The translations under genes and the position numbers were made by a program. Shown piece after piece: positions 9,553 through 30,832 of a stretch of DNA of 34,280 bases (within the stretch, counting starts at the first letter, position 1; each line of letters opens with the position of its first letter). The DNA lies in the NCBI GenBank assembly GCA_016934825.1, contig JAFGSB010000161.1:1-34280 (forward strand). The letters run 5' to 3'. The notes below the pieces were generated by a model that had not been told where the DNA came from, ran no database searches, and worked only from the letters and a program-made list of their open reading frames with translations. The DNA is from Candidatus Zhuqueibacterota bacterium (GTDB lineage Bacteria; Zhuqueibacterota; Zhuqueibacteria; Residuimicrobiales; Krinioviventaceae).

Positions 9553-12500
9553 ATGTTTAAAAAAGTTTGTTTTATTTTGATACAAATTGTTGTTATTGTT
9601 TCACAGAGTATACAAGCGCGTACTGTGGTTAAAGAAAATCATTCTTCTGTCTTTTCCGTTTACGAGATAGTTGAAATATCATTATCCGTATCGGAACCGT
9701 CAGTGCAGAATCCCTTTACGGAGGTGTCGGTCTCGGCTGTTTTTACTGCACCGTCCGCGGATGAAATTCAAATCAAAGGATTTTGTGATTCAAACAACGG
9801 CTCATTATACCGGCTCCGGTTTACTCCCGCATTAACCGGCACTTATTCGTATGAGATCACCTACCAGGATCCTCTTGGAAGCGAACATTTTTCAGGGCAA
9901 TTTAACGTCAATTCCGGCGGTGCGCGAAACGGTTTCATTACTGCCGATCCGGAATATCCCACGCGTTTTAAATTTACCAGCGGCGGACATCCGTTTATTT
10001 GTTCGAAAACGGCGTGGCTCATTGCCGGTATCCCGGAAAATACTTATAAAGGTTTTCTTGACAAAATGGTGCCGCGCAAGGAAAATTGTATTCGATTTGG
10101 TTTTGAATTTGATTACTCAACAGAGTCTCCCTATATTGATGTCTGGCCGTGGGCAGGCACCCGCAGTAATCCGGATTATTCCCGGTTTGACGTCAGTTTC
10201 TGGAGAAATGTAGATAATATTATTGAATACGCGGCGCAAAGAGATATTTATTCGGAATGTGTTATTTTTACCAGCCAGAGAACGACACTTGAATGGACCC
10301 ACGCCCAGCGTTATCTTGATTATATATTAGCGAGGCTGGCCTGTTATCCTTCTATCATATTATTTCAGACAAACAATGAATACAATTCCACGATTGACAG
10401 CAAGAGCTATTTAATCCAGGTAGCGGATTATATTCATCAAAACGATCCGTATGATCATCTTGTCGCACCCGCCCATCGCAGTACAACCGATGCGGCCTGG
10501 GCGGATGAAGACTGGGTTGATGTGGCAATCAACCATTGGGCAAAATATAACAAGAACAGTCTTTTGACAATATACGACATTGCCACCAGAATAACCAAAT
10601 ACGGCAAACCGGCCTGGTGTGACGAAACGGCGCGGGAAGACCGGCACAGTAATAACAGCAGCGTTCACAGAAGAAAACAGTACTGGACCTGGAACATGGC
10701 CGGCGTTTACTGGTCATTTCATTCCTGGGAAGGCAGCGAGGGGATACTAGACCTGACATACAACGGTCCCGGATATGAATACGAACCGTTTATCCGGCCG
10801 TTCTGGGAAAAAACAGAATTCTGGAAAATGCTGCCCAATAATAACCTGATCAGGAATGATCCGCCTTCACTTTACGAACGGTGTATTGCCTCGGATGAAG
10901 AGATTGTGATTTACATGTGTAACGGACCAGATAATCCCCTGACGCTTGCGGACCTGCCGGATAATTATACCGATTCCGGGCCGATCCGTGTTGAACTGCC
11001 CGATGGAATATTCAATGCCGAATTTTATAATCCGTCCAACGGGCAATATTATACCGACTATAAAAAAGTAGAAATCGCAGGTGGACAGAATGTTACACTT
11101 ACTTTTCCGACTTTTAATCATGATCTGGTGATATATATTTCCAAAACCGGTGAATTCCCGGTGACGACGGCGGATTTTTCCGCGCAGCCATTGACCGGTT
11201 ACGCTCCTCTGGCGGTTCAGTTCACCAACCTGTCCTCGGAAGCACATACATACGAATGGAATTTCGGCGACGGCTCGCCGCATACATCCCTGAAAGACCC
11301 GGAGCATGTTTATCCATCCGAGGGTACTTATTCTGTTACTTTAACGGCTACAGGTACATACGGAGCGGACACTGAAGTTAAAACCGGGTATATTGAGGTC
11401 AAGGAAAAGACTGTCGGATTTACCGATATTACAACGTCTTCCAATACGGCCGGGTTTTCATCGTCCGGGTACGGACACGGGGTTTCGTTTACCGATATTG
11501 ACCTTGACCGTTTGGTCGATCTGTTTGTCAGCAATGCAGGAGGGTCCGTCAAGCCGGTGGACCTGCTTTATAAAAACCAGGGGTCGGGTGAATTCCTGAG
11601 CGAGTCCGTAATACGCGGTATCGGCGACGAAGGATTCACGCATAGTATTGTAAACGCCGATTTTGATTCTGACGGCGATCCTGACGCATTTTTTGCCAAC
11701 CAGCCTGTCGGGGCGGATATCAACGCCGGAAGAAACCGGTTATACCGTAACGACGGCGCCGGGTATTATACGGATATCACGGAGTTGGCCGGACTGCCGG
11801 AGGAATATAACTATACACGCGGCGCCGTTGCCTGTGATATAAATAATGACGGCTATCCGGATATTTACGCCGTTAACTGGGCAGCCGCTAACGAGATGTA
11901 TATAAATGACGGCTCCGGAAGATTGAAGCGGGAGGACCGCGGTGCCAACGGAGCGCCGGGTAATAACGCAATCGAGACAGGCGTGACGGCCGCGGATTTT
12001 GACCGTGACGGAGATGTTGATATTTACGTCTGCCGGCACGACGCCGGTAACCTGTTATATGTCAATGACGGAACGGGATATTTTAACGAGGACGCGCAAA
12101 GCCGGGGCGTGGACATCGGCGGCCGATCCAACGGCGCAACATTTGCCGATATCGATAATGACGGCGACCTGGATCTGTTTGTCGTAAATGAATGTTTGTC
12201 CGGCAGTACGGTTTTACCTTTGTTGAATATCCTGATCAACAATGGAGACGGGACATTTCAAAATAAAAGCGATCTTTATGGCATCAATGTCAGCGGATAC
12301 TCCGTACTGTTTGGTGATGTGGACAATGATGCAGACCCGGATATGGCGCTGGTCAGAAATAATTTTATTGTTTCGGATGAAAAGCCCGCTTTATACCTAA
12401 ACGACGGGTCCGGCGGTTTTGAATTGATACCTGGATCGGGGATTGAAGGGAATGCGCAGGATGCCCGCGGGGGCGGTTTTGCCGATATCGACAATGACGG

Positions 12501-14322
12501 TGATATGGATCTCTATATCGCCTGTGCGGCGGGGCAGAATTTTATGCTGCGCAATGATCTGGTGAACGGAAATCATTATATCGATATTTTGTGTGAAGGG
12601 CCAAAGGGAGATTACGGCGGCGTGGGCACCAAAGTGTCGGTGTATGAACCGGGTCATATCGGTGATAATGAATATCTTTTAGGTTACCAGGAAGTGGTTT
12701 CCAATTATGGATATCTGAGCCAAAATCAGCCTGCGTTACATTTCGGACTGGGTCAGTTCAGCAATTGCGATATCAGGATCGAATTGATCAAAACGGACGG
12801 TACGGAGAACAGTGTGCTGGACACCACTAATATTGGCGCAGACCAGGTTTTTATTATGGATGTTTTTAAAGAATTTTATCCGCCCGTTATATTTGATATA
12901 CAGGATTCCGGTGATCGTAATTTAACGTTTACCTGGTCCCGGGTTAACGGCGCCACCGGGTACCATGTTTACCGTGATACAAGCCCTGATTTTGTTCCCG
13001 ACACACAGGGCGGCAGCAACAGGGTCGGCGAGAATGTTAATGACCAGGATCCCGGTTTAACGGATATACAATGGACGGATACGGATATAGTGACCGGCGA
13101 TATTGAAAACAATTATTATTATAAAATTACATCTGTGAAAGGTTCGGAAGAAAGTGCGGCGTCAGTCACATTCGGTGAATTTGATTATGAGCTTGTCACA
13201 ACCGATAAAACGGATTTTAATGAAATCGCATTACCCCTGTATGTAAAGAATGTTTTCAAGGCTAACGATTTAATGGATTTAATATTGGACTGCAATTCAG
13301 TCGCAAGGTGGAATTCCGGTCTGCAGGATTACGAGATGTATGTGCCGGGTTATGAAATAAGTAATTTTTCCGTCGAACCGGGTTACCCCTATTATGTGAA
13401 TATCACCACAAACAGTATCCTGACGATAACAGGGGAAATACAGTTCCCTGTCTTTCAGTTGGATACGACCCGAACCACGGATTTTAATGAAATAATATTA
13501 ACATTTGATAAAACACATATCAAAAACGCCTCCGCCCTGATGGCCGACATACCACATTGTAACAGCGTGGCGAGATGGAATGCGGCCGCGCAGGGATACG
13601 AACAATATATACCGGGCCTGGTATTCACAGATTTTAGTACAACAATGGGTTATCCATATTATGTCAATGTAACGGAAAATACAACCTGGCCGGAAAAGTT
13701 GTTTTCGAAACCGGCGGTTACCGCAAAAAAAACGCATTGTCCCGTTACTTCAAAAGCGCCGCACGTAGTTTACGGTGAAATTAAACACGCCGGATTTTTC
13801 AGGTTTGTCGCGTTTTTGAAAAAGAATCCTTCGGATCTGTTGACAGATGAATCACCCGGCTGTATCAAAAATGAATATTACTGGATTGTGCAGACGGCAA
13901 ATTTCAAAAGCGGATGGAATGCCGGAGATATAATCAGTATAGAGTTTTACGACGATCAAGATCAATTATTGGGGAAAACGGAATGGCCCCTGACCCATAA
14001 TGCTTATGATTATACCGGAACTTTTGATTTAGGAACGGTCCCGCAAGCCTATTCCCTCGAACAAAATTATCCGAATCCGTTTAATGCGGAAACCACGATC
14101 GGCTTCAGTTTACCGGGGAATTCCGATATATCATTAAAAATATATAATACAAAAGGCCAGTTGATCCGGACTCTTGTGGACCATAACAAACCTCCGGGGA
14201 ATTATAAGGTCGTCTGGGATGGAAAAAACGAATCCGGATTACCTGCCGCCAGCGGCACGTATTTATATGTTATGAAATCAAATTTCTTCAAAAAAGTGCT
14301 CAAGGCTGTATTATTAAAGTAA
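9553..14322 (+). CDS. Giant secreted GH-like / PKD / FG-GAP / ASPIC protein, T9SS cargo
   Basis: A 1589-residue exported protein. After a signal peptide (to about residue 22) comes a DUF5060-like beta domain (about 28-115), then a clan-A-type TIM barrel resembling DUF4038/apiosidase-like glycosidases (about 130-430). Glu276 in TNNEYNS and Glu358 in WCDETARED are the likely acid/base and nucleophile. Then come a PKD domain (about 537-618, WNFGDGSPHTS), about seven FG-GAP/VCBS-type repeats with DIDNDGDLDLF-like calcium loops (620-1000), an ASPIC/UnbV domain (about 1007-1105), FN3 (1111-1209), two CNSVARWN modules (1214-1380), one PHxVxG module (1402-1494) and a T9SS sorting domain (EQNYPNPFNAET). 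It probably acts on a carbohydrate at the cell surface; the substrate cannot be read from sequence. AAAGG seven bases upstream supports the ATG. Confidence 0.85.
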   Translation: MFKKVCFILIQIVVIVSQSIQARTVVKENHSSVFSVYEIVEISLSVSEPSVQNPFTEVSVSAVFTAPSADEIQIKGFCDSNNGSLYRLRFTPALTGTYSYEITYQDPLGSEHFSGQFNVNSGGARNGFITADPEYPTRFKFTSGGHPFICSKTAWLIAGIPENTYKGFLDKMVPRKENCIRFGFEFDYSTESPYIDVWPWAGTRSNPDYSRFDVSFWRNVDNIIEYAAQRDIYSECVIFTSQRTTLEWTHAQRYLDYILARLACYPSIILFQTNNEYNSTIDSKSYLIQVADYIHQNDPYDHLVAPAHRSTTDAAWADEDWVDVAINHWAKYNKNSLLTIYDIATRITKYGKPAWCDETAREDRHSNNSSVHRRKQYWTWNMAGVYWSFHSWEGSEGILDLTYNGPGYEYEPFIRPFWEKTEFWKMLPNNNLIRNDPPSLYERCIASDEEIVIYMCNGPDNPLTLADLPDNYTDSGPIRVELPDGIFNAEFYNPSNGQYYTDYKKVEIAGGQNVTLTFPTFNHDLVIYISKTGEFPVTTADFSAQPLTGYAPLAVQFTNLSSEAHTYEWNFGDGSPHTSLKDPEHVYPSEGTYSVTLTATGTYGADTEVKTGYIEVKEKTVGFTDITTSSNTAGFSSSGYGHGVSFTDIDLDRLVDLFVSNAGGSVKPVDLLYKNQGSGEFLSESVIRGIGDEGFTHSIVNADFDSDGDPDAFFANQPVGADINAGRNRLYRNDGAGYYTDITELAGLPEEYNYTRGAVACDINNDGYPDIYAVNWAAANEMYINDGSGRLKREDRGANGAPGNNAIETGVTAADFDRDGDVDIYVCRHDAGNLLYVNDGTGYFNEDAQSRGVDIGGRSNGATFADIDNDGDLDLFVVNECLSGSTVLPLLNILINNGDGTFQNKSDLYGINVSGYSVLFGDVDNDADPDMALVRNNFIVSDEKPALYLNDGSGGFELIPGSGIEGNAQDARGGGFADIDNDGDMDLYIACAAGQNFMLRNDLVNGNHYIDILCEGPKGDYGGVGTKVSVYEPGHIGDNEYLLGYQEVVSNYGYLSQNQPALHFGLGQFSNCDIRIELIKTDGTENSVLDTTNIGADQVFIMDVFKEFYPPVIFDIQDSGDRNLTFTWSRVNGATGYHVYRDTSPDFVPDTQGGSNRVGENVNDQDPGLTDIQWTDTDIVTGDIENNYYYKITSVKGSEESAASVTFGEFDYELVTTDKTDFNEIALPLYVKNVFKANDLMDLILDCNSVARWNSGLQDYEMYVPGYEISNFSVEPGYPYYVNITTNSILTITGEIQFPVFQLDTTRTTDFNEIILTFDKTHIKNASALMADIPHCNSVARWNAAAQGYEQYIPGLVFTDFSTTMGYPYYVNVTENTTWPEKLFSKPAVTAKKTHCPVTSKAPHVVYGEIKHAGFFRFVAFLKKNPSDLLTDESPGCIKNEYYWIVQTANFKSGWNAGDIISIEFYDDQDQLLGKTEWPLTHNAYDYTGTFDLGTVPQAYSLEQNYPNPFNAETTIGFSLPGNSDISLKIYNTKGQLIRTLVDHNKPPGNYKVVWDGKNESGLPAASGTYLYVMKSNFFKKVLKAVLLK
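13192..13695 (+). repeat. Tandem CNSVARWN protein modules (two copies)
   Basis: Two in-frame copies (13192-13461 and 13462-13695) encode a module of 78-90 residues. Each has TDFNEI near its start, CNSVARWN in the middle, a YE(M/Q)Y(V/I)PG turn and GYPYYVN near the end. The same tandem pair occurs in the next gene at 16022-16520. I do not recognise a named domain. Confidence 0.7.
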
Positions 14323-14497
14323 TGTGAATTTATAGCAATTTCCGACATGAATTAATTCATTTATAAATAACAATAGCTTATGGAGGAGTGAAGTTTCATA
14401 ATAAAAATTATTCAGATGAGTTTGAAAGAAAAGATGTTGAGTAATCCACCGGATCACAATGTACGTTTATAGGAAATTTTGTATATCAGGAGATAAA

Positions 14498-17158
14498 ATG
14501 TTCAAGAGTTCAATATATTATAATAAAATACACGCTGAAATTATCTTTATACTCATATTTATTATATTATCAACCGTAGGGTCTTCTTTTGCCACAACAA
14601 TTAATGATATCGAGATCATTCCCAAAGTGACAATAGAATCTACGAACGAAGGTTACAGTCCTTTTGTAGCTGTAAATCCGGTCGACAAGTTTCCGCATGT
14701 TTTTTGGTGTAAAAACGGCGATATTTACCACTCTTATCGAAAGGCGGACGGGGCCTGGAAGGCGTATGAGATTTTTCCTGATGGCGGATATAATGTATAC
14801 AGCGTCGATGAAGATGAGGACAGCGTGCTTTTCCGTAAGCCCATTCGGAATGTCGCCGTGGAATTTGATACGCTGGGTGTCATGCATCTCGTCTTCGCGG
14901 AAGAAAACGGCGGTATTTATCACATGAAAAGAAGCGGCGGAACATGGACCCAGCCGCAGCTTGTCTGTAAAAATACAATAACCAAAGTCAATCTGGATAT
15001 TGCCCTTTTTGAAAACCGGATTTACATCTGCTATGAAGAGGGCAGGGACGATAAACTCTACACGGTGGAGTTTGACGGCACACAATGGAAAAAACCTTTA
15101 TTCATGACTGGGGGAGAATTTTGTTATCTGGCAACCAGTGATAACGGTTATTTATATTTCAGCTCGCGCACAAGCGTCAATCCCCGGAACGCTTATTTCG
15201 CGTATATTGCACCGGGCGGCACTTCATGGCAAAGAGTGAATAATGTCACCAATGCAACCATTAAAGTGGGGGCCGGGCCGCATTTGACGGTATCCAACGG
15301 ACGGATTTTTCTGGCATGGCCGGGATTGACCAATCTGGGTGATAATGATAAACAAACGGCCCTGTTTTGCGCGTCCGCGCTGGAACCGGGTAACAGTTGG
15401 ACGCCTCAATTCGGCGCGGATACATTATTTTATGAAAATACCGGAGACCCGTTTCCCCGTGTTGCCGCCTATGAAGACGGTACGGTTGTGTATTTGAATT
15501 CCCGGCGCCTGATATCCCGTTTTATGATCTGGAACGGCACGGCCTGGAGCGGGTACCGACAGGCGCCATGGGGTGAAACGTTGTCGGAGGTGGCCAGCGA
15601 TGGACTTACGGTATGGGTAATATCGTTAAGTCTCAGCAAAAGCCGTCCGTGGTGGAAAGGACCGATATCGATTACCGGATTAAAAAATATCGCCCCTTAC
15701 CTGAACGTGACGCCGCCGGAATTGACGGCCGCCAATAAAGTCAACGGCAATAATTTACAGTTAACGTTTACCGAAGTTTTGGGTGCAACCTCATACAGGG
15801 TGTATCGTGGAACAACTGCCGTTTTTACCCCGGATTTACAGAATGGAACGAACAGGATTGCTGCGGATGTTGTCGACCAGGACACAGGAACTCCCGGCAT
15901 TCAGTGGACCGATACCGATAACGTAACCGGCAACCCGGCCGTAAATTATTTTTATGCCGTGACAGCCGTCGGTGCAAAGGAAAGTGATCCCTCGAATAAA
16001 ATCGGCGAGTTTGATTATCAGCTTGTCACAACCACTTCCACGGATTTTAATGAAATTGCCCTGCCGCTTGAATTGACCGGTATAACTAAAGCAAATGAAC
16101 TGATGAATGTTATCCCGTACTGCAATTCAATTGCCAGGTGGGACGCCGCCTCTCAGGGATATGTGCAATATATTCCGGAACTGACATTTACGGATTTTGA
16201 TATACAGGCGGGACGTCCCTATTACGTCAATATAACCGCGAATTCGGTTTTTACCCTGACCGGCAGCGTCATTTCCCCGGTGTTCAATTTACTGACAACG
16301 GAATCGACCAGTTTTAATGAGATTGTGCTGCCTCTGGATAAAACATCCATAACCAAAGCTTCGGAGTTGTTGACTGATGTACAGGATTGCGACGCGGTTG
16401 CGCAGTGGAATGCCGTTTTACAAAATTATGATATGTACATCCCCGCTCAGTCGTTTTCCGATTTCCAGACCAAAGTCGGTTATCCTTATTATATTCATGT
16501 GACATCGGGCAGTACATGGCCCGGGAGCGGACTACTGAAAAACAATTTGACGGCCATACAATCGACACGATCGCTGTCAAAGGTTCCTCACGCGGTTTAT
16601 GGAAACCTGAATTCCGCCATGCCTGATATTCATTTTACGGCAAGTATAGAGGGCAGGCCCGATGATATATTGACTGAAAAATCACCCGGATGTTTTTTGC
16701 AGGACTCGAAATTTGTTGTACAGACAGGCAGTTTTATCCACGGCTGGCAGATAGGCGACAAACTGAAAATTCAATTTCATGATGTTAACGGAAATACGGT
16801 CGGGCAGGCGCGGGCAATTTTAAGCGCAAATGCTTTTGACAAGACTGCCGATACAGAGTTGACAATAAGGAATATCCCCGCAGATTACCATTTGATGCAG
16901 AATTTCCCGAATCCGTTCAACCCGGAAACTTTGATCAGTTTTAGTATTCCGAAAGATGGTCATGTCGGTCTGCTGGTGTTTAATACGATGGGACAAAAAA
17001 TACGTACCCTTGTCAATGAGTACAAAAATGCCGGTACATTTAACGTGACCTGGGACGGAAGGAATGACGCGGGTTTGAATGTATCGTCCGGAACATATAT
17101 CTATGTATTGAAAAGCGGCGATATGAACATTAAACGAAAAGCGGTACTGCTTCGTTAA
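14498..17158 (+). CDS. Secreted beta-propeller-like protein with FN3 and T9SS sorting domain
   Basis: An 886-residue exported protein with a signal peptide ending near SSFA. Residues about 40-400 contain repeated strands and turns such as HVFWCKNGDIYHSYR, MHLVFAEENGGIYHMKR and IYICYEEGRDDKLYTV, the pattern of a sialidase/BNR-like beta-propeller. The Asp-box consensus is weak and no catalytic residues can be assigned. Then follow FN3 (about 400-504), two CNSVARWN modules (about 509-675), one PHxVxG module (about 696-794) and the sorting domain (MQNFPNPFNPET). The C-terminal half, from FN3 onward, is colinear with and clearly homologous to that of the preceding gene, so the two arose by duplication with exchange of the N-terminal business end. 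The ATG at 14498 follows AGGAGATAAA; the in-frame ATG at 14459 has no such site and would spoil the signal peptide. Confidence 0.85.
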   Translation: MFKSSIYYNKIHAEIIFILIFIILSTVGSSFATTINDIEIIPKVTIESTNEGYSPFVAVNPVDKFPHVFWCKNGDIYHSYRKADGAWKAYEIFPDGGYNVYSVDEDEDSVLFRKPIRNVAVEFDTLGVMHLVFAEENGGIYHMKRSGGTWTQPQLVCKNTITKVNLDIALFENRIYICYEEGRDDKLYTVEFDGTQWKKPLFMTGGEFCYLATSDNGYLYFSSRTSVNPRNAYFAYIAPGGTSWQRVNNVTNATIKVGAGPHLTVSNGRIFLAWPGLTNLGDNDKQTALFCASALEPGNSWTPQFGADTLFYENTGDPFPRVAAYEDGTVVYLNSRRLISRFMIWNGTAWSGYRQAPWGETLSEVASDGLTVWVISLSLSKSRPWWKGPISITGLKNIAPYLNVTPPELTAANKVNGNNLQLTFTEVLGATSYRVYRGTTAVFTPDLQNGTNRIAADVVDQDTGTPGIQWTDTDNVTGNPAVNYFYAVTAVGAKESDPSNKIGEFDYQLVTTTSTDFNEIALPLELTGITKANELMNVIPYCNSIARWDAASQGYVQYIPELTFTDFDIQAGRPYYVNITANSVFTLTGSVISPVFNLLTTESTSFNEIVLPLDKTSITKASELLTDVQDCDAVAQWNAVLQNYDMYIPAQSFSDFQTKVGYPYYIHVTSGSTWPGSGLLKNNLTAIQSTRSLSKVPHAVYGNLNSAMPDIHFTASIEGRPDDILTEKSPGCFLQDSKFVVQTGSFIHGWQIGDKLKIQFHDVNGNTVGQARAILSANAFDKTADTELTIRNIPADYHLMQNFPNPFNPETLISFSIPKDGHVGLLVFNTMGQKIRTLVNEYKNAGTFNVTWDGRNDAGLNVSSGTYIYVLKSGDMNIKRKAVLLR
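16022..16520 (+). repeat. Tandem CNSVARWN protein modules (second pair)
   Basis: Two in-frame copies (16022-16294 and 16295-16520) parallel the pair in the previous gene: STDFNEIALPL, CNSIARWD, then RPYYVNIT in the first copy; TSFNEIVLPL, CDAVAQWN, then GYPYYIHVT in the second. First copies of the two genes resemble each other more than they resemble the second copies, which suggests the pair was duplicated as a unit. Confidence 0.65.
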
Positions 17159-17188
17159 CCCCTTAAAAAATTTTTTTGGATAAATAAA

Positions 17189-17869
17189 ATGTTTAAAAGA
17201 ATAAATTTTTTTGTTTATATTTTATCAATTTGTTTTTCAACGGTCCTGTACAGTGGAGGGGTTCCGCACGCGGTTGTCGGAACTCTACAGTATTCCGACG
17301 GACGATTCCCTTCAACGGTCGACTGGAAAGCATTTATAACGGCAAGATCAACGGATGTACTTGAATTCGAAAAGCCCTCCTTATATGACAGCCTGTCCGG
17401 AGGATTTTTAATTCAGTGCGCCGGGTTTTTGTCCTGGACTGCGGGGGAAACCCTGCATGTTGATTTTACGGACAATCAAAATGCCGCCGGTTCGGCGGAT
17501 GTGGTTCTGACTTTCAATCCTGTGGATGACGCCGGCGTCATCATTTTAAAAGAACCCGCCGGCGTGGAACATTCAGATAACGAAAAACCGGTAAAGTTTG
17601 AGTTATATCAAAATTATCCCAATCCTTTTAATCCGGAAACGGTAATCGCTTTTATGATTGACACGCCCCAATATGTCACGTTAAATATTTATAATTCTTC
17701 GGGTCAGTTGATCAAAACGTTATTTTCAGGATTTAAGGGCAGCGGGGAACATCATGTGATATGGAATGGAAAAGACAGGACGGGATGTCCGGCCGCAAGC
17801 GGATTATATTTATATGTTTTAAACGGAGAGAATTTTACCCGACAATTAAAAGCACATTTATTACGATGA
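17189..17869 (+). CDS. Minimal secreted PHxVxG-module protein with T9SS sorting domain
   Basis: A 226-residue exported protein consisting only of a signal peptide, one copy of the PHxVxG module (about residues 25-122: VPHAVVG, then LQYSDGRFPSTVDWKAF, LSWTAGETLHVDF) and a T9SS sorting domain (YQNYPNPFNPET, SSGQLIKTLF, GLYLYVL). It is the simplest carrier of a module found in four neighbouring giants. That makes it the natural reference copy for what the module does alone. The gene starts 30 bp after the previous stop, without a strong Shine-Dalgarno site. Function unknown; a small surface or matrix protein is plausible. Confidence 0.8.
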   Translation: MFKRINFFVYILSICFSTVLYSGGVPHAVVGTLQYSDGRFPSTVDWKAFITARSTDVLEFEKPSLYDSLSGGFLIQCAGFLSWTAGETLHVDFTDNQNAAGSADVVLTFNPVDDAGVIILKEPAGVEHSDNEKPVKFELYQNYPNPFNPETVIAFMIDTPQYVTLNIYNSSGQLIKTLFSGFKGSGEHHVIWNGKDRTGCPAASGLYLYVLNGENFTRQLKAHLLR

Positions 17870-17911
17870 GACTGTTTTGATCATGAAATTTATTAACAGA
17901 AGGAATTTAAC

Positions 17912-20900
17912 GTGAAGATCAGGCATGTATCTTTTTTATTTATCGCGACAATATTATTTATTATAAATTTGTTCAGTTTTGTTGATGTATTCGCACAAGC
18001 TCCGCATTCAGTCGGCGGCAGGCTTGAATATTCTGACGGAACACATCCGGCAAGTGTCACCTGGAGTGCTTATTTGACCAAAAATCCCGGTAAAACAATC
18101 AACCAGGATGCGCCGGGTTCCGAATATTATGGTGCATCCTCGGGTGAATTCATTATCCAGATAAGCGGCGTGAATGCTTTGCCGGAATGGTCAGCCGGAG
18201 ATGTGCTGCATATTGATTTTAATGACGGAGACGGTTACACCGCTTCATTAGATGTTACGCTAACGACGGAACCTTACGAGTACGTTGGTACAGTAACACT
18301 GATACGGTATCCGCGCCAGATCACTATTACCACGAATCCGTCGGGATTGCAATTTATCGCCGACGGCAGTACGTATACCGCGCCGCATACATTTACATGG
18401 GAACAGGGTTCCGGGCATACCTTGGATGTCACGTCCCCGCAATCATTGGGGGTAACCGGTGTTCAATATACTTTTGCCTCCTGGAGCGACGGCGGTTCCA
18501 AACTGCATAGTTATACGGTTCCCCTCGGCGATGAAATCCTGACCGCCGCGTTTAATACGCAGTATCAATTGAATATTATTTCCCCTCACGGAAATCCGCA
18601 GGGCGGGGGCTGGTACAATGCGGGTACCGGGGCACAATTCAGTATTACCTCGCCGGAGTCGGGCGGAACCGGCAAACAATTCGTGTTCACCGGTTGGACC
18701 GGAAGCGGCAGCGGCTCATATACCGGTACGCAGACCACATACACCGTAGTCATGAACAATCCAATTACCGAGACCGCCGGCTGGAAAACCCAGTTCCGGC
18801 TTACAACCGGCGTAAGCCCCGCGGGAAGCGGGACCGTAACGGCTAATCCATCCGGGACCTGGTTTGACAGCAGCGCAGTAGTCGGTTTGTCCGCGACAGC
18901 CAATTCCGGATTTATGTGGAGCAAATGGTCGGGTGACCTGAGCGGTACGACAAATCCGGTTAATATCACGATGAATGCTCCCAAAAACGTAACCGCGAAT
19001 TTTGGCAAACCTGTGCAGATTACCATAAATACCAGTCCGGCAAACCGGCGTTTTTCTGTCGACGGCAGCAATTATACGACACCGCAGACTTTTACATGGG
19101 CGGAAAACAGCCTGCATAATATTTCCGTAACCACACCGCAGGCCGGAACAACGGGAATACAATATACGTTCACGGCATGGAGCCCGGGCGGCAGTACGGC
19201 CCCGGTCCTGACATATACGGTCCCCGGAACCAACCAGACCATAACAGCGAATTTTAAAACCCAATATGAATTGTCGGTAATTTCGGAAAGAGGGGAGCCA
19301 TCGGGGGCCGGATGGTATGACGCCGGTTCAAACGCGCAGTTCAGTGTAACGACGCCGGTTTCCGGCGGAACGGGTACGCAATATGTATTTACGGGCTGGA
19401 CCGGCAGCGGCAACGGTTCCTATACCGGCACACAGACCACATACACCGTTATTATGAACAATCCGATGACGGAAACGGCAAGCTGGAAAAAGCAATATTA
19501 TTTGACCGTGAATTCCGGGTTCGGCAATCCGCAGGGTCAGGGGTGGTACGATTCCGGCGCAACGGCGGCGTTCTCCGTGACCTCGCCGGATGTTCGGGGA
19601 AACACAAAATACATTTTTTTAAACTGGTCAGGAGCATATAACGGCAGTGAAACCGGTCATTCGATTTCAATGAATGCGCCCAAAACTGTGACCGCCGCCT
19701 GGAAAACGCAGCATTATCTGACAACCGCGGAAAATCCGGATGCCGGCGGAGATATGACACCCGTTCCCCCAGGTGGCTGGTATGACGAAAACGAGGTTGT
19801 GAATTTGAACGCGACAGTGAATACGGGTTATGCATGGGGCGGATGGTCCGGTTCGTTGAGCGGTACCATAAGACCAACTTTAATAACCATGGACACGTCA
19901 AAGAGCGTTACGGCCAATTTTAACAAAGTTTCTCAAATTACCGTAAAAACGAATATCGACGGTTTTGAGTTTTCAGTGGATGAGGCAAATTATTATTCCG
20001 CCAGAACCTTTTCGTGGATAGTGGGCAGTACCCACACCCTGGCGACGGCGTCTCCGCAGGATTATAACGCCACCCCTTACATTTTTACATCCTGGAGCGA
20101 CGGCGGGACCATCAATCACACATATACGGTTGCCGATAAAAAGGATACCGTAACGGCCTTTTTTGAACCGAGGGAATTTAAACTGACAATGGCGGTTGAA
20201 CCCCTGAATACCGGTTCGACCACACCCGCTGTCGGTGTTCATGTCTACAATCCCGGGCAGGTCGTATCTATTTCGGCCGTTCCGATTTCCGGATACAGGT
20301 TTATCAAATGGATCGGAGATGTGGACAGCCCGGATTCTCCCGCAACAACCGTTACCATGGATGACAACAAGGCGGTCATTGCCAAATTTATCCGGATCGG
20401 AGATGTCCGGGTCACGACAGACCCGGAAGGTCTTCGTATTGTTGTCGATCAGACAGCCTATACATCGCCGCAGGATTTTCACTGGACACCCGGTACAAAC
20501 CATACGATCAGTATCGATTCTACGACGCAAAACCGCGGGAGCGGCACCCGTTTTATATTTCAGCGCTGGAGTGACGACGGAGCCGCGGCCCACCAGATAA
20601 CCGTTAATGAGGAATATATTTATACGGCGGAATTTCTGACCCGCTACAAACTGACTACCGCTGACGACCCGGCAGCGGGCGGTTCAATGACACCCGCGCC
20701 TCCCGGCAATTGGTACGATATGGGTACACGTGTTGAAGTAAAAGCCAGGCCGGATACACTGAACGGTTATATTTTTTCAGGCTGGAGCGGCGATTTAAGC
20801 GGTAAAACCAATCCGGATTCCGTTTTGATGGACGGCCCCAAAATCATAACGGCAAAATATACCCGCATGTTAAATGTCCGTATCAATACCGTACCTGATA

Positions 20901-22405
20901 GTATGTCCGTAATTGTTGATGAAATAAAGTATACATCGCCTTGCGATTTTACCTGGGAGGACGGTTCCACACATAGCCTGGGTGCGGATACACTCAAGAG
21001 CGACGGTCCCGGAAAGAGATATATCTTTGATAACTGGAGTGATGCAAAGCCTTTATTGCACACGGTAACTGTAATGTCGGATACTGTTTTCACTGCAAGT
21101 TATAACCGGCAGTATTATCTGTCCACATTTGTCGATCCGGCTGACGGCGGCAGTATAACCCCAGCAGCGCCCGGGGCGTGGTTCGATCGGGACAGCAGGG
21201 TAGAGCTGCTGGCGAAAGCAAATACGAATTTGGATTATATTTTTTCCGAGTGGACGGGCGCCCTCACCGGAAACCAGAACCCGGACACACTGACACTGGA
21301 TGCGCCCAAATCGGTTACGGCTCATTTTCGTTCCAGTGATGACCAGGCGCCGATCCTGTCTTATGTATACCCGGCCGACGGTTCCAAACAGATCCCCCGG
21401 AACGAATCCATTCAATTCAAAGTTACGGATACCGGAACGGGAATCAAATTAAATTCCCTGCAATTCTATGTGAACAATAAAACGATTGTCAAAAACGGAT
21501 TGGATTTCACCGGCGGTTTGGCCACGGTCAAGTATACAGGTAAAAGTTGTTCCGTATTTTATGATCCCCCGGAATATTTTATGCCAGACAGCACGATAAC
21601 CTTAAATATTCAGTGCCAGGATCTTTCCAGGCTGAATAACATGATGGACAGTACAGCCGGTTTTGTTGTCGGCGCGGCAACAGTAGCCTGCACAAAAACG
21701 GACACATTGGATCAGAATGGCGGCGTCGTATTTGATGATTCAACCGGAATCGTTATGTTCGTGCCCGACAGCGCATTAACGGATACGACAATTTTAACAA
21801 TCGGCCGTGTAAACTCTTATCCGGAATTACCGGCGGATGATAAGGAATACCAGACAGCGGTCCATTTCGGGCCGTCCGGACTCCGGTTCGCCGACTCTGT
21901 GACCGTAACCATACCGTATGATCAATCCGTACTCGATAACGCCGGCGTCGCCAGACCGGAAGATCTGACAGTATATTATTATTCGGTTTTCGAAGGTAGT
22001 TGGCATACTTTAAAAATCATTAATTCCAATGCGCAGAATATTTATGTTAAAATAAAAGAGTTATGTTACCTGGTATACGGAGAAAAAAATTCTACCTATT
22101 CCGAACCCGGGAAATTTTTCGGCCCGACAACATTTGAGTTGTCACAGAATTACCCGAATCCATTTAATCCGCAGACGACGATTAAATACCAGGTGCCGCA
22201 GAATGTATATGTTACACTGGAAATATTTAATATTAATGGTCAAAAGATTAAAACCCTCATCCGCGAAGACAGGATGGCGGGGTATTATACCGTCGTTTGG
22301 GACGGTACAAATGATTATAATATGGCTGTCTCTACCGGTATGTACTTTTTAAAAATGAAAGCCGGAGAATATGTTAAAATCATCAAGATGTCATTTCTAA
22401 AATGA
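17912..22405 (+). CDS. Giant adhesin-like InlB-B-repeat protein, T9SS cargo
   Basis: A 1497-residue exported protein. A signal peptide ends at about VFAQ. Then comes one PHxVxG module (about 30-130). Next are about 13 repeats of 70-80 residues (about 137-1140) in two classes: five of class A (ITITTNPSGLQF, VDGxxY, TFTWxxGSxHT) and eight of class B (SPAGSGTVT, WYDxG, GWSGxLSG, VTANF), the latter like divergent InlB B-repeats. An Ig-like domain (QAPILSYVYPADGSKQIPRN), a ZU5-like domain (NGGVVFDDSTGIVMFVPDSA, then FGPSGLRFADSVTVTIPYD) and the sorting domain (SQNYPNPFNPQT) follow. A surface stalk or adhesin role is inferred from architecture. The GTG start follows AGAAGGAA. Composition is richer in GC than the intergenic DNA, as in its neighbours. 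Confidence 0.85.
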   Translation: MKIRHVSFLFIATILFIINLFSFVDVFAQAPHSVGGRLEYSDGTHPASVTWSAYLTKNPGKTINQDAPGSEYYGASSGEFIIQISGVNALPEWSAGDVLHIDFNDGDGYTASLDVTLTTEPYEYVGTVTLIRYPRQITITTNPSGLQFIADGSTYTAPHTFTWEQGSGHTLDVTSPQSLGVTGVQYTFASWSDGGSKLHSYTVPLGDEILTAAFNTQYQLNIISPHGNPQGGGWYNAGTGAQFSITSPESGGTGKQFVFTGWTGSGSGSYTGTQTTYTVVMNNPITETAGWKTQFRLTTGVSPAGSGTVTANPSGTWFDSSAVVGLSATANSGFMWSKWSGDLSGTTNPVNITMNAPKNVTANFGKPVQITINTSPANRRFSVDGSNYTTPQTFTWAENSLHNISVTTPQAGTTGIQYTFTAWSPGGSTAPVLTYTVPGTNQTITANFKTQYELSVISERGEPSGAGWYDAGSNAQFSVTTPVSGGTGTQYVFTGWTGSGNGSYTGTQTTYTVIMNNPMTETASWKKQYYLTVNSGFGNPQGQGWYDSGATAAFSVTSPDVRGNTKYIFLNWSGAYNGSETGHSISMNAPKTVTAAWKTQHYLTTAENPDAGGDMTPVPPGGWYDENEVVNLNATVNTGYAWGGWSGSLSGTIRPTLITMDTSKSVTANFNKVSQITVKTNIDGFEFSVDEANYYSARTFSWIVGSTHTLATASPQDYNATPYIFTSWSDGGTINHTYTVADKKDTVTAFFEPREFKLTMAVEPLNTGSTTPAVGVHVYNPGQVVSISAVPISGYRFIKWIGDVDSPDSPATTVTMDDNKAVIAKFIRIGDVRVTTDPEGLRIVVDQTAYTSPQDFHWTPGTNHTISIDSTTQNRGSGTRFIFQRWSDDGAAAHQITVNEEYIYTAEFLTRYKLTTADDPAAGGSMTPAPPGNWYDMGTRVEVKARPDTLNGYIFSGWSGDLSGKTNPDSVLMDGPKIITAKYTRMLNVRINTVPDSMSVIVDEIKYTSPCDFTWEDGSTHSLGADTLKSDGPGKRYIFDNWSDAKPLLHTVTVMSDTVFTASYNRQYYLSTFVDPADGGSITPAAPGAWFDRDSRVELLAKANTNLDYIFSEWTGALTGNQNPDTLTLDAPKSVTAHFRSSDDQAPILSYVYPADGSKQIPRNESIQFKVTDTGTGIKLNSLQFYVNNKTIVKNGLDFTGGLATVKYTGKSCSVFYDPPEYFMPDSTITLNIQCQDLSRLNNMMDSTAGFVVGAATVACTKTDTLDQNGGVVFDDSTGIVMFVPDSALTDTTILTIGRVNSYPELPADDKEYQTAVHFGPSGLRFADSVTVTIPYDQSVLDNAGVARPEDLTVYYYSVFEGSWHTLKIINSNAQNIYVKIKELCYLVYGEKNSTYSEPGKFFGPTTFELSQNYPNPFNPQTTIKYQVPQNVYVTLEIFNINGQKIKTLIREDRMAGYYTVVWDGTNDYNMAVSTGMYFLKMKAGEYVKIIKMSFLK
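18319..21330 (+). repeat. Mixed class A/class B InlB-like repeat tract
   Basis: Class A copies begin near 18319, 19018, 19939, 20407 and 20878; class B copies fill the intervals and follow the last A. The copies are diverged at DNA level apart from two near-identical stretches, GSYTGTQTTYTV at about 18710 and 19425, which suggest local duplication or conversion. Confidence 0.75.
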
Positions 22406-22975
22406 GGAAAATGTAGACTATCAGGTCGGTAAACCAGATTCGTATGAGCTTGCAGGTAGATAAAAATTGCTTAATTGAGTGAAAATGGTAATGGTATAGA
22501 CGATTGTCGGAAGTAATATATTTATCTCCGTCTGACGGTTATACCGGTTGAATGGCGACGTCCCTTAAAACTCAGGGGTCAGGCCTATCATCCCTATTAA
22601 CAAGTAGTTGTTAAAATAATAAATCGGCTATTATCAATGGCATATTTATTGTAAAGTCATTTGGGATATGTGGATTTTGGACCGGTTTTATATATAACCG
22701 TTTGATTTTAAATGTATTGCAGAATTATATTACAGTTAGTTTCCGAATTCTTTCTCTGACCAGAGTATAACTTGATTGTCCCGTATAAAATATTCAAGTG
22801 GGATAAATTTATATTAAAGTAATTAAATTAAAGGAGAAAAGCAGTATCAGAGACGAATAGAACAATTTAGAAAACGGCAATATAGTCACAATTTTAAGTA
22901 ACATTATTTTAAAACACAATAAAGAATGTTAGAATTAATATTGATTTTGACAAATACACTATGGAGGATCAGAAA
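22406..22975. other. Intergenic region between the two giant adhesin genes
   Basis: This 570-bp AT-rich gap holds no convincing gene or RNA. No clear T-tract terminator follows the upstream gene. The one structured element I can support is an 18-bp near-palindrome at 22683-22700. The far end carries the GGAGG ribosome site of the next gene. Confidence 0.6.
22683..22700. promoter_or_regulatory. Near-palindromic possible operator
   Basis: CGGTTTTATATATAACCG is an 18-bp palindrome with one mismatched pair. It lies about 275 bp upstream of the second giant adhesin gene. It could bind a dimeric regulator; no recognisable promoter hexamers flank it convincingly. Confidence 0.25.
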
Positions 22976-25900
22976 GTGTTTAAATATAAATATAATGTAT
23001 GGATATTATTCACGCTGTTGTTTATTTTCGGAATCTGTGAAAATATTTTCGCGGCCGACGATCATTGGGTAAAAGGGACTATCCGGTACAGCGACGGCAC
23101 CTTTCCCAGCGATATAACCTTCAGGGCTTATATCAGCAGCCCTGACCGGCATACCGATGTGATAACAGATGACGGCCCGGATCACAAATATCATCATGAT
23201 ACCGGCGGCGTCGAAATTCAATTGAAATATTTTCATAATAACTGGTCTCCCGGTGAAACACTGTGCATTAATTTTGTGGATACTCACGGGAACCCTTTAA
23301 CTGTATATGTTGTATTGACCAGCAATCCCGAGGATAATTTCGGCACATATACGATGTCGAGAACCAAGGCGAAATTGACCATTAAACATTATATGGAGTC
23401 CTGGGGTAGGATTGAGCCTGTTGACGGCGAACATATATATAACATAGGCGAGGTGGTTCAATTAAGGGCCTATCCGGCAAAAGGATACCGATTCAAATAC
23501 TGGACCACCAATGTGGCCGATCCTTACGCTGCCTTTACAACGGTCACCATGAACGGGGACCAAAAGGTGGACGGCGTTTTTTCAAAATTATATTATACCG
23601 TAACAATGGTTTCCGATCCGCCGGAAGGCGGCGTTACCGATCCTCCTACAGGTGTATACACCGATGTTTATAACAGCGGGGACGTTATACAACTTACAGC
23701 GACGCCGAATCCAGGTTACCGTTTTGTTTCCTGGAGCGGAAATGTGGTTGATTCTACAAGCCAGACGACATCCATTACGATTCTTCAGCATGAAACCATA
23801 ACCGCCAGGTTCGAGCAGGCGTCCTGCACTTTGAATATGCACGTTAATCCGGGCAACGGCGGAACGGTCACTCCCGCTGTCGGCGAGCATACATATGACG
23901 CCGGTACGGTTGTGCCCATCTCCGCCGTACCGCAGACAGGATATTTGTTCGTTAACTGGACCGGCGATGTGGCGGAACCCGACAATCCCAACACGACCGT
24001 CACCATGAACGGCGACAAGGATGTCACCGCCAATTTTTCGAAACCGCAGGTCACCCTTAATTTATCCGTTTCACCCGCGGGATCGGGTACGACCGTACCG
24101 GCCGCAGGGCAGTATTCTGTGGATGAGGATTCCGTGGTAACGCTTCAGGCCGTTGCCGGACCGGGGTACCAGTTTGTGAACTGGACGGGAGCAGTGGCCG
24201 ATCCGAACAATCCCAACACAACGGTAACCATGAGCGAAAATAAAACGGTAACGGCAAATTTCGCAAGAATAAAAGTAACTCTTACCATGTCCGTATCACC
24301 GGCAGGATGGGGTACAACCGCGCCGGCTGTCGGGCAGTATGCGGTAAATATGGATTCCGTGGTCTCGATCCAGGCCGTTGCCGGCGAGGGTTACCAGTTT
24401 GTGAACTGGACGGGAGAAGTGGCCGATCCCAACAATCCCGTTACTACGGTGACCATGACCGGTAATAAAACCGTAACCGCGAATTTTTCAAGACCGCGGG
24501 TCACCCTTAACGTATCCGTTTCACCCGCGGGATCAGGTACAACCGTACCTGCAGCCGGTCAGTATTCGGTGGAAATGGATTCGGTTGTAACACTTCAGGC
24601 TGTTGCCGGACAGGGCTACCAGTTTGTTAACTGGACCGGTGACGTTGCGGACCCGAATAGTCCCAATACGACGGTAACCATAACCGGCCCCAAAACCGTG
24701 ACCGCCAATTTTGAAAAGATTCAGGTTACTCTGGGCCTGGCCGTTTCTCCCGCAGGTTCGGGGACGACCTTGCCTGCTGCCGGGCTGTATTCTGTGGATA
24801 TGGATTCGGTTGTTACAATACAGGCCGTTGCCGGACCGGGGTACCAGTTTGTGAACTGGACGGGAGAAGTGGCCGATCCTAACAATCCTGTTACAACGGT
24901 AACAATGACCGGTAATAAAGCTGTAACAGCCAAATTCGAAAAATTAAAAGTTACCCTGACATTATCCGTATTGCCCGAAGGCTGGGGTACGTCCATACCG
25001 ACAGCGGGACAATATACTGTGGAAATGGATTCGGTTGTTGCGATCCAGGCCGTTGCCGGCGAGGGCTACCAGTTTGTGAACTGGACGGGAGAAGTGGCCG
25101 ACCCCAACAATCCCGTTACAACGGTGACCATGACCGGCCATAAAACCGTAATTGCCAATTTTGAAAAGGCAAAAATTAGCCTGACCATATCCGTTTCACC
25201 TTCCGGTTCGGGTACGACAGTGCCCGCCGCCGGACAATATACAGTGGAAAAAGATTCTGTGCTTGCGCTGCAGGCCATTGCCAATGAGGGATACTTTTTT
25301 GTAAACTGGACGGGTGATGTGGCGGACCCCAACAATCCCGTTACGACGGTGACTATAACCGGCAATATGGAAGTAAAAGCGAATTTTGCCAAGCCCAAAG
25401 TTTCACTGACTTTATCCGTTCTGCCGGAAGACGCCGGAACGACCGTGCCGCCGGTCGGTCAATATTCCGTGGACACGGATTCTGTTGTTATGATTGAAGC
25501 CAGGGCGGCCGCGGGTTTCCAGTTTGTGAACTGGACGGGCAAAGTAGCGGAGCCGGATTCCGCGCGAACGACAGTTACAATGGATTCAAGTAGAAATATT
25601 ACTGCAAATTTTATAGCTTTAACGGACGTTGTTGTTACGACAAACCCGGTCGGACTGCGTATCGTCGTAGACGGAAATCCTTACTACTCGCCTCAGGTGT
25701 TCAGTTGGGTTGGCGGTTCGGAACATACAATCGGTATCGATTCGACGGAACAAAACGGCAGTAAAGGAATAAGATACCTGTATGAGGGCTGGAGCGATGA
25801 GGGAGAGCAAATACATAATATAATTACGGGCGATAAATTTCTGTATACCGCGAATTTTAAAACCCAATATTATCTTTTTACTCTTGTGGAACCGGAAAAC

Positions 25901-27436
25901 GCCGGCATAATAACGCCTGCCGCCCCGGGCGCCTGGTTTGACAGTGGTACTGAGGTCCCCGTCACGGTGACGGAAAACCCGGAAACCGGGTATGTATTCT
26001 GGGAGTGGAGCGGTAATCTGAACGGCTCCGCGAATCCGGATACGGTCGTCATGGATACGACCAAATCCGTAACCGCACGTTTTATTGCCAGTGATTCTGA
26101 AGCGCCTGTTTTGACGAATGTCTATCCGGTTAAAGAGGCCCTGGAAATACCACGAAACACATCAATACAATTTAAACTGTCTGACGAGGTGAGCGGTATA
26201 AATCCGTCAACTCTACAATTTACTGTGGAAGCTTTTACTGTAATATCAAACGGAGTAGACCAGACTGAAGGAAGAACAAATATCGTTTTTAACGGGCATG
26301 GCTGTTCCGTATTTTATCAGCCTGAACAATCGTTTGATGAGGGTGAATCCATTGTTGTCAATATCGAATGTGAAGACCAGTCGTTGTTCAAAAACAGGCT
26401 GGACAGCACTTTTTCGTTTAAAATCGGTTCATCTCAGATTGTTTACACAAAAAGAGATACCGTCAATCAAACCGGCGGAGTGGTATTTGATGATACAACC
26501 GGGATAACGGTGACCATTCCGGCAAATGCGCTTGCCGATACGACTGAAATTACCATCAATGTTGTCAAAGATTACCCGGAATTACCGCCCGGCAGGAAAG
26601 GTCTGTCGTTGGGCGCTTATTTCGGGCCATCGGGACTGCAATTCGCCGATTCGGTAACCATTTCCATACCCTATGATCAGGCGGTACTGGACAGTGCGGG
26701 CGTAACGAATCCGATGGACCTGAAGGTATATTATTTTTCCGTATTGTCGGGCCAATGGATTACATTAAAAGTGATCGGCGCCGATGCTAAGAATATCTTT
26801 GTAAAAGTAAAGGAATTCTGCTACCTGGTCTATGGTGTTAAATATACGACTTTGAGTAAACCCAATACGCCGGTCGGACAAACAAAATTGTTGGTCAATA
26901 CGCTGTATGGATTTGAAACTTCAAAGGTTAGTTCACTCCTCGGTCATGCCGTGGAATATAGATTTGATTGGGGCGACGGCTATATGTCAAGCTGGTCGCA
27001 GGACACAACCGCTGCCCATAAATGGACGGATATGGGAAGATTCGGCGTTGTGGCCTTTGCCAGGTCCATTACCGATTCGACGCAGACCAATCAATCCGAT
27101 ACACTGTTTGTGACGGTAACAGACCTGTCCTCCATCGACCCGGACGGCGCTGCTCCGAAATCGTTCAGGTTATCACAGAATTTTCCGAATCCCTTTAATC
27201 CGCAGACAACGATCAAATATCAGGTACCGAAGAATATAAATGTTACCCTGGAGATCTATAATGTCAACGGACAAAAGATCAAAACGCTGGTAAATGAAGA
27301 AAAGGTGACGGGGTCTTATACGGTCATCTGGGACGGAAGAGATGATTATAATGTGGCCGTTTCATCCGGATTGTACTTTTTAAAGATGAAGGCCGGTGAT
27401 TATACCAAAGTGGTCAAAATGTCGTTTTTGAAGTAA
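22976..27436 (+). CDS. Giant adhesin-like protein with homogenised InlB-B repeats, T9SS cargo
   Basis: A 1486-residue exported protein. The signal peptide ends near IFAA, followed by one PHxVxG-type module (DHWVKGTIRYSDGTFPSD). Ten class B InlB-like repeats come next, the last eight exactly 75 residues each (core GYQFVNWTGEVADPNNP, then TVTMTGNKTVTANF). After them are one class A and one class B repeat, an Ig-like domain (APVLTNVYPVKEALEIPRN), a ZU5-like domain (TGGVVFDDTTGITVTIPANA), a PKD-like domain (FDWGDGYMSSWS) and the sorting domain (SQNFPNPFNPQT). From the final A/B pair onward it is colinear with its upstream paralogue, except for the added PKD-like domain. The GTG at 22976 is preferred over the ATG at 22961, because that ATG is embedded in the GGAGG site that serves the GTG eight bases later. 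Confidence 0.85.
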   Translation: MFKYKYNVWILFTLLFIFGICENIFAADDHWVKGTIRYSDGTFPSDITFRAYISSPDRHTDVITDDGPDHKYHHDTGGVEIQLKYFHNNWSPGETLCINFVDTHGNPLTVYVVLTSNPEDNFGTYTMSRTKAKLTIKHYMESWGRIEPVDGEHIYNIGEVVQLRAYPAKGYRFKYWTTNVADPYAAFTTVTMNGDQKVDGVFSKLYYTVTMVSDPPEGGVTDPPTGVYTDVYNSGDVIQLTATPNPGYRFVSWSGNVVDSTSQTTSITILQHETITARFEQASCTLNMHVNPGNGGTVTPAVGEHTYDAGTVVPISAVPQTGYLFVNWTGDVAEPDNPNTTVTMNGDKDVTANFSKPQVTLNLSVSPAGSGTTVPAAGQYSVDEDSVVTLQAVAGPGYQFVNWTGAVADPNNPNTTVTMSENKTVTANFARIKVTLTMSVSPAGWGTTAPAVGQYAVNMDSVVSIQAVAGEGYQFVNWTGEVADPNNPVTTVTMTGNKTVTANFSRPRVTLNVSVSPAGSGTTVPAAGQYSVEMDSVVTLQAVAGQGYQFVNWTGDVADPNSPNTTVTITGPKTVTANFEKIQVTLGLAVSPAGSGTTLPAAGLYSVDMDSVVTIQAVAGPGYQFVNWTGEVADPNNPVTTVTMTGNKAVTAKFEKLKVTLTLSVLPEGWGTSIPTAGQYTVEMDSVVAIQAVAGEGYQFVNWTGEVADPNNPVTTVTMTGHKTVIANFEKAKISLTISVSPSGSGTTVPAAGQYTVEKDSVLALQAIANEGYFFVNWTGDVADPNNPVTTVTITGNMEVKANFAKPKVSLTLSVLPEDAGTTVPPVGQYSVDTDSVVMIEARAAAGFQFVNWTGKVAEPDSARTTVTMDSSRNITANFIALTDVVVTTNPVGLRIVVDGNPYYSPQVFSWVGGSEHTIGIDSTEQNGSKGIRYLYEGWSDEGEQIHNIITGDKFLYTANFKTQYYLFTLVEPENAGIITPAAPGAWFDSGTEVPVTVTENPETGYVFWEWSGNLNGSANPDTVVMDTTKSVTARFIASDSEAPVLTNVYPVKEALEIPRNTSIQFKLSDEVSGINPSTLQFTVEAFTVISNGVDQTEGRTNIVFNGHGCSVFYQPEQSFDEGESIVVNIECEDQSLFKNRLDSTFSFKIGSSQIVYTKRDTVNQTGGVVFDDTTGITVTIPANALADTTEITINVVKDYPELPPGRKGLSLGAYFGPSGLQFADSVTISIPYDQAVLDSAGVTNPMDLKVYYFSVLSGQWITLKVIGADAKNIFVKVKEFCYLVYGVKYTTLSKPNTPVGQTKLLVNTLYGFETSKVSSLLGHAVEYRFDWGDGYMSSWSQDTTAAHKWTDMGRFGVVAFARSITDSTQTNQSDTLFVTVTDLSSIDPDGAAPKSFRLSQNFPNPFNPQTTIKYQVPKNINVTLEIYNVNGQKIKTLVNEEKVTGSYTVIWDGRDDYNVAVSSGLYFLKMKAGDYTKVVKMSFLK
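23822..25621 (+). repeat. Eight exact-length 225-bp in-frame repeats
   Basis: Repeat units start at 23822, 24047, 24272, 24497, 24722, 24947, 25172 and 25397: eight units of exactly 225 bp with no indels. The middle units share long near-identical DNA stretches, for example TACCAGTTTGTGAACTGGAC followed by GGGAGAAGTGGCCGA in several copies. Two longer, more diverged units precede them (from about 23363). The constant length and patchwork identity indicate recent duplication or gene conversion. Confidence 0.9.
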
Positions 27437-28411: not shown

Positions 28412-28708
28412 TTGGAAATTGGTAAAATAGTCGGTACAGTTGTGTCCACGGTAAAAGATAAAAAATTATCGGGCAGCAAATTACTTATTGTCAACATAAC
28501 TTCCGCGGACGGGAAACCGACGTCAAATCATGTTATTGCCGTCGACACGGTTGGCGCCGGCACCGGGGAACTGGTTATCATTGTGCGGGGCAGTTCCGCG
28601 CGGCAGGCCCAAAACATGGAGACCGTACCCACGGACACAAGTATTATCGGCATTATCGACACGCTGGAATATGAAGGTAAAGTGGTTTTTCAAAAATACC
28701 CGACCTGA
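28412..28708 (+). CDS. BMC-P vertex shell protein (EutN/CcmL family), copy 1
   Basis: A 98-residue EutN/CcmL protein. Family members form pentamers that cap the vertices of bacterial microcompartment shells. Hallmarks are GKIVGTVVSTVKDKKLSG and KLLIVNI at the N-terminus, AVDTVGAGTGELVIIVRGSS in the middle, and PTDTSIIGIIDTL near the C-terminus. The TTG start follows AAAGGAGATAAA. It lies directly upstream of the aldehyde dehydrogenase. Of the three copies here it is the most canonical in sequence. Confidence 0.92.
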   Translation: MEIGKIVGTVVSTVKDKKLSGSKLLIVNITSADGKPTSNHVIAVDTVGAGTGELVIIVRGSSARQAQNMETVPTDTSIIGIIDTLEYEGKVVFQKYPT

Positions 28709-28757
28709 TATTTAGAGATCTCGGAATGTTAACTTTTTTTAATAGAGGATTCTTGTC

Positions 28758-30179: not shown

Positions 30180-30191
30180 GGTACGAATGGT

Positions 30192-30524: not shown

Positions 30525-30527
30525 AAA

Positions 30528-30806: not shown

Positions 30807-30832
30807 ATTTTACTTTAAAAAGAACAGGAATT

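Follow-up and report, generated by a model that had tools for sequence, protein, structure and literature searches.

A predicted transthyretin-like module of T9SS-exported surface proteins and its putative partner, a tandem TDF repeat

The window, by which we mean the whole stretch of 34,280 nucleotides analysed here (Candidatus Zhuqueibacterota bacterium, contig JAFGSB010000161.1), encodes five exported surface proteins, A to E, each of them comprising one copy of a module of about 95 residues and a C-terminal T9SS sorting domain. In A and B the module is preceded by a pair of repeats of a second type, which we term TDF. Signal peptides were assigned as hydrophobic N-termini judged by eye. 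The features are as follows.

9553-14322, + strand: gene A, 1589 aa, with DUF5060/apiosidase-like, PKD, FG-GAP, ASPIC and FN3-like regions, a TDF pair, the module and a T9SS sorting domain
13186-13713, + strand: TDF repeat pair of gene A, two repeats of ~90 aa
13759-14037, + strand: module copy A, pre-sorting type (segment alignment, profile)
14056-14319, + strand: T9SS type A sorting domain of A (TIGR04183, 26.4 bits)
14459-17158, + strand: gene B, 899 aa, with a propeller-like region (weak DUF5050), an FN3-like region, a TDF pair, the module and a sorting domain
16016-16546, + strand: TDF repeat pair of gene B
16586-16867, + strand: module copy B, pre-sorting type (segment alignment, profile; AlphaFold2 model with the sorting domain, pLDDT 90)
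16892-17155, + strand: sorting domain of B (TIGR04183, 23.4 bits; best match of its model, PorU 1055-1157, PDB 6za2, Z 11.3)
17189-17869, + strand: gene C, 226 aa, signal peptide, module and sorting domain only; separated from B by 30 nt
17264-17554, + strand: module copy C, N-terminal type (profile; AlphaFold2 pLDDT 91.3, pTM 0.83)
17603-17866, + strand: sorting domain of C (TIGR04183, 30.7 bits)
17912-22405, + strand: gene D, 1497 aa, signal peptide, module, InlB-B/PEGA repeats, ZU5 and sorting domain; starts 42 nt after C
18002-18298, + strand: module copy D, N-terminal type (segment alignment, profile)
22139-22402, + strand: sorting domain of D (TIGR04183, 32.6 bits)
22961-27436, + strand: gene E, 1491 aa, signal peptide, module, 11 InlB-B repeats, ZU5 and sorting domain
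23060-23353, + strand: module copy E, N-terminal type (segment alignment, profile)
27170-27433, + strand: sorting domain of E (TIGR04183, 32.5 bits)

In both D (17912-22405) and E (22961-27436), a ZU5-like domain lies between the InlB-type repeats and the sorting domain. Further downstream, the region 28412-31609 looks, by eye only, like a bacterial microcompartment locus, in which three small open reading frames (at 28412, 30192 and 30528) resemble shell-vertex proteins of the EutN/CcmL type and two genes resemble an aldehyde dehydrogenase (28758-30179) and a class II aldolase (30833-31609).

The first-pass annotation had proposed that the five genes share this module, and its interpretation is supported. 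With the refined segments of the five copies aligned, 11 columns are invariant. A profile built from four window copies and searched for the fifth recovered every copy (E-values of 1.4e-15 for A, 1.2e-12 for B, 6.7e-23 for C, 8.4e-17 for D and 2.1e-13 for E). The real modules score 43-76 bits, far above the best value of 9.7 bits among 2,100 shuffled window proteins, and chance similarity is ruled out by these two results. The boundaries first assigned are correct within a few bases for A, C, D and E, whereas the segment given for B (16584-16878) did not keep the reading frame and overran by about 11 nt. The two positions described then are likewise borne out: the module directly follows a signal-peptide-like N-terminus in C, D and E, and in A and B it sits just before a sorting domain that passes TIGR04183 as T9SS type A; the small protein said to consist of module and sorting domain only is the 226-aa product of gene C. 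Erosion of the SDGxxP motif in the pre-sorting copies extends to the family as a whole, a DG..P-like motif being present in 2 of 20 C-terminal-type modules compared with 22 of 35 N-terminal ones. The TDF pair in front of copies A and B, and five further copies in the same genome, were absent from that annotation.

The genome holds 10 copies in all, five in the window and the others on contigs C118, C70, C165 (two copies) and C33. A narrow pattern scan of genome contigs gave four loci. Across the phylum the module occurs in 26 of 82 genomes, in about 80 copies (81 modules counted), one of which (L048) is identical to another (G071), and in other phyla it is rare (7 genomes out of about 306). 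Its position is bimodal among 60 non-redundant copies: one type lies right behind the signal peptide, the other about 100-112 residues from the C-terminus and separated from the sorting domain by 13-25 residues, and 5 of the 60 belong to neither type. The position classes cluster on the tree, which is itself poorly resolved (3 changes for the C-terminal class, compared with 16.8 in shuffles). Modules of the N-terminal class, the C-terminal class and the small proteins form one family (hhalign probability 99.8-100%). Three aromatic positions are conserved, W60 in 92%, F57 in 83% and W50 in 63% of copies. A disulfide role for two frequent cysteines (GCGY, VQCGNF) was rejected, as they show no co-variation by eye and many copies carry only one of them. 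A phage origin was also rejected, a scan of viral contigs having yielded no relative.

In line with the earlier remark that no named family was recognised, Pfam and NCBIfam contain no credible model over the module in the five full-length window proteins. When 24 diverse members were scanned singly, the matches were isolated and weak, none above chance (best E-value 0.0055, in one member only), and a sequence search of the PDB gave no match. The module is an undescribed family of known fold. Two other arrangements were observed: in another phylum, a 240-aa protein (L127, 4140-4862) is made up of a signal peptide followed by two modules, no sorting domain having been detected in it, and on contig C165 of the genome studied here two small module-FN3-sorting proteins face each other (L063, 8319-9473 on the + strand and 9725-10741 on the - strand), near glycosyltransferase-like genes and with no TDF client detected.

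An AlphaFold2 model of the module, based on nine sequences, is confident (pLDDT 91.3, pTM 0.83) and all beta except for one short helical turn. The predicted fold is a transthyretin/CnaB-like (prealbumin-like) beta-sandwich. This is the outcome that the first-pass annotation had named as support for novelty, a beta-sandwich with no significant Pfam match, with the caveat that the fold is already known. Foldseek returned no PDB match below 1e-3 (E no better than 4e-3). The neighbours found with VIA-align are SlaB (Z 9.2), the teneurin TTR domain (Z 8.9), the CPD transthyretin-like domain (5aq0; Z 8.5, rmsd 2.3 over 80 residues), CnaB2 (Z 8.2), and Mfa2 and the SusC N-terminal extension (Z 7.5-7.6), a list in which missing fold classes carry no evidential weight. 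Like the module, the TTR-like, carboxypeptidase-regulatory-like and CnaB domains (teneurin TTR, CPD TTL, CnaB2, SusC NTE, Mfa2) are all-beta sandwiches of about 95 residues, matched over 78-92 residues at Z 7.5-9.2; they too are extracellular and repeatedly serve as N-terminal or stalk domains. The module shows no sequence or profile relation to them that we could find, and it has no conserved Lys/Asn pair of the isopeptide type. Because best Z values of 7-8 are common for models without relatives, we take the similarity as a fold assignment and not as homology. Membership of CarboxypepD_reg (PF13620) was rejected by sequence (hhalign 0.06-0.49% against 30 domains of the same genome; no Pfam match), and so was a CnaB/SpaA isopeptide domain, Lys and Asn being absent from the columns conserved in at least half of 60 sequences. 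In a model of copy B together with its sorting domain, both domains are confident (pLDDT 90) and their mutual placement is not (pTM 0.55); a rigid unit of module and sorting domain is not supported.

The TDF repeat is a second undescribed family. It comprises about 90 residues, usually in tandem, with the consensus TTDFNEIALPL...CNSVARWNA..QGYEQYVPG...F..GYPYYVNVT, and has no credible match in Pfam or NCBIfam. TDF repeats, usually two, precede every fused pre-sorting module examined in the phylum, 34-97 nt upstream and in the same frame. The order at the fused loci examined, including A and B of the window, is TDF-TDF-module-sorting domain, and the regions N-terminal to the pair vary (GH2, FG-GAP, rhamnogalacturonan-lyase-like, PKD/apiosidase-like).

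The same two families also occur split between adjacent genes. In the split form the TDF pair ends about 0-20 residues from the C-terminus of a signal-peptide protein that lacks a sorting domain. A signal peptide, the module, in some cases an FN3-like domain, and a sorting domain are then encoded by the gene that follows, which lies no more than 756 nt away and in most cases about 160 nt or less. This form is found twice elsewhere in the genome studied here (C70, C33), and among the TDF-tailed clients are a subtilase and Ig proteins of Big_5/HYDIN-like type. For 46 of 53 TDF blocks throughout the phylum, a same-strand module lies at most 800 nt downstream. Of the remaining seven, three have a diverged or more distant next-gene module that a refined profile detects (L162, 4e-10; L163, 9e-15; L170, 8e-14); the other four are three extra clients in tandem clusters with one module anchor (L174, L175) and one block at a contig end. 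Among the 82 genomes, 25 contain both families, one the module only, one TDF only and 55 neither (Fisher p 9e-19, with genomes treated as independent despite their relatedness). Many of the loci are orthologous, so they are not independent events; the linkage of TDF and module is well supported.

In the tandem clusters (L174, 1037-11240; L175, 3067-9831), two to three TDF-tailed proteins, one of them a subtilase, accompany a single module-sorting gene, as though the clients shared an anchor.

Both forms extend beyond the phylum. The fused form occurs there together with a module-sorting protein of 204-212 aa (L123, L125, L126), the counterpart of the 226-aa protein C, and split pairs are found at L129, L131, L182 and L187, the modules at the last two having been looked for because TDF was already found there. 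Next-gene modules beside TDF in G232 (E 7e-4, +19 nt) and G238 (E 9e-5, +25 nt) have modest E-values and are assigned partly by position. Gene order recurs as well: a TDF-TDF-module-sorting gene is followed closely by an N-terminal-module gene in the window (B to C, 30 nt, with D a further 42 nt after C), in G001, G069, G011, G034, G046, G075 and G029 (154 nt), and outside the phylum in G232, G084 and G371. At L187 (1-11742), the TDF pair forms the end of a giant protein (open frame of 4732 aa); the next protein, 25 nt further on, has 1838 aa and a diverged module at its N-terminus, and a sorting domain was not recognised in it.

Several observations count against a partnership of the two domains. 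No free TDF-tailed client lies beside the large N-terminal-module proteins D and E of the window, 35 of the 81 modules are not what a TDF block has as its nearest module within 800 nt, and in G120 and G265 the stretch from a single TDF-like domain to the sorting tail holds a different domain, not recognisable as the module and only faintly similar to it. L183 (1717-4638), L184, L185 and L186 carry in the module's place, behind a single TDF-like domain and ahead of the sorting tail, a different domain of ~100 aa (WAFVVSGHLEG...VGDVIEL...), possibly a remote relative.

The export context is that of T9SS. All five window proteins carry a type A sorting domain above the TIGR04183 cut-off of 23 bits (23.4-32.6 bits), and the same genome encodes SprA (893 bits summed), at least 150 sorting domains and 18 PorV-family proteins over cut-off; summing neighbouring pieces raises the PorV-family count by one. 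PorV is the carrier of type A substrates, which are then either released or linked to surface LPS (PMC10994853). Our literature search found nothing joining T9SS with KSB1, and nothing relevant on transthyretin-like domains together with T9SS.

Two domains that are fused in some proteins and split between neighbouring genes in others are a classic sign of interacting domains. From this pattern, we propose that the module is an undescribed TTR/CnaB-like family on T9SS-exported proteins and the partner of the tandem TDF pair (TDF2), a reading to which we give an even chance. We infer a physical contact between module and TDF2 and, through that contact, anchoring (or co-export) of the clients. 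In a fused client with its own sorting signal, the module would lie proximal to the membrane, with TDF2 resting on it in cis. A split client, ending in TDF2 and devoid of a sorting domain, would be held at the surface in trans by the module-sorting protein of the next gene; C, D and E of the window are further module-bearing surface proteins of the same gene cluster. That clients without a T9SS signal are captured through their TDF tails by a neighbouring module-sorting protein, or carried by it through the translocon, and are elsewhere fused to the module, is a tentative proposal that we hold with somewhat less than even confidence. The outline resembles cohesin-dockerin, with a tail domain on the client and a surface-anchored receptor domain, trans-encoded in adjacent genes as in a two-part docking system, and one anchor for several clients in L174 and L175. 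Going by the Pfam scans, which gave no match, the module-TDF2 pair is unrelated to cohesin-dockerin; it is also often fused in one chain, and its docking is putative.

The module may instead serve T9SS cargo only as a structural spacer or as a folding cap, forming with the TDF pair a non-binding supra-domain from which gene fission transferred it to a secreted protein next door. The bead-like behaviour of module and sorting domain in the AlphaFold2 model fits this explanation, and could hold for TDF2 and the module too; so does the great diversity of partners (GH2, FG-GAP, apiosidase-like, propeller). The DUF1735/BACON domains of Bacteroidota, which are interpreted as spacers (PMC11216935), are, like the module, small beta-sandwiches beside the signal peptide of surface enzymes, although they reside mostly on lipoproteins of polysaccharide utilisation loci (PMC11216935), whereas the module is found on T9SS cargo and shows no family match. 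We consider a mere spacer rather unlikely: it leaves unexplained that a module gene is kept beside TDF2-tailed, sorting-less proteins across many families and in other phyla, and that the two families co-occur almost perfectly among genomes.

It is less probable still that the module protects or escorts cargo during T9SS export, the module-CTD protein of the split form co-exporting its CTD-less client via the translocon. The modules of A, B and their relatives are beta-sandwiches abutting the sorting domain, at the same place as the Ig-like domain that directly precedes the CTD of T9SS cargo, and such domains are essential for cargo stability during secretion according to the title of Sato 2018 (cited in PMC10994853). 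Moreover, T9SS export needs a CTD, and the clients lack one yet have signal-peptide-like N-termini. Unlike the pre-CTD Ig-like domain, the module is also found behind signal peptides, on separate proteins and tied to TDF2; an escort role leaves unexplained its position right after the signal peptide in proteins of 1,500 residues, far from the CTD, and the titles and abstracts of the literature yielded no precedent for co-export. A carbohydrate-binding module that tethers proteins to glycans would agree with a predicted beta-sandwich bearing conserved aromatics (W60, F57, W50), with weak Foldseek matches to CBM41 and with the glycosidases among the partners. This last reading seems to us very improbable, as no CBM family model matches the module in the five window proteins or the 24 diverse members, the closest structural neighbours are TTR-like domains with structural or protein-interaction roles, and the linkage to TDF would have no explanation.

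With the partnership of module and TDF2 as a proposal, two domain families that are absent from Pfam and NCBIfam, present in uncultured KSB1-related bacteria and sparse elsewhere, can be tested as a pair. Should the two bind physically, the pair would be a possible surface-display tool, and T9SS bacteria would have a modular display route for proteins that lack a T9SS signal, so that predictions of the surface proteome relying on sorting domains alone would miss some of its members.
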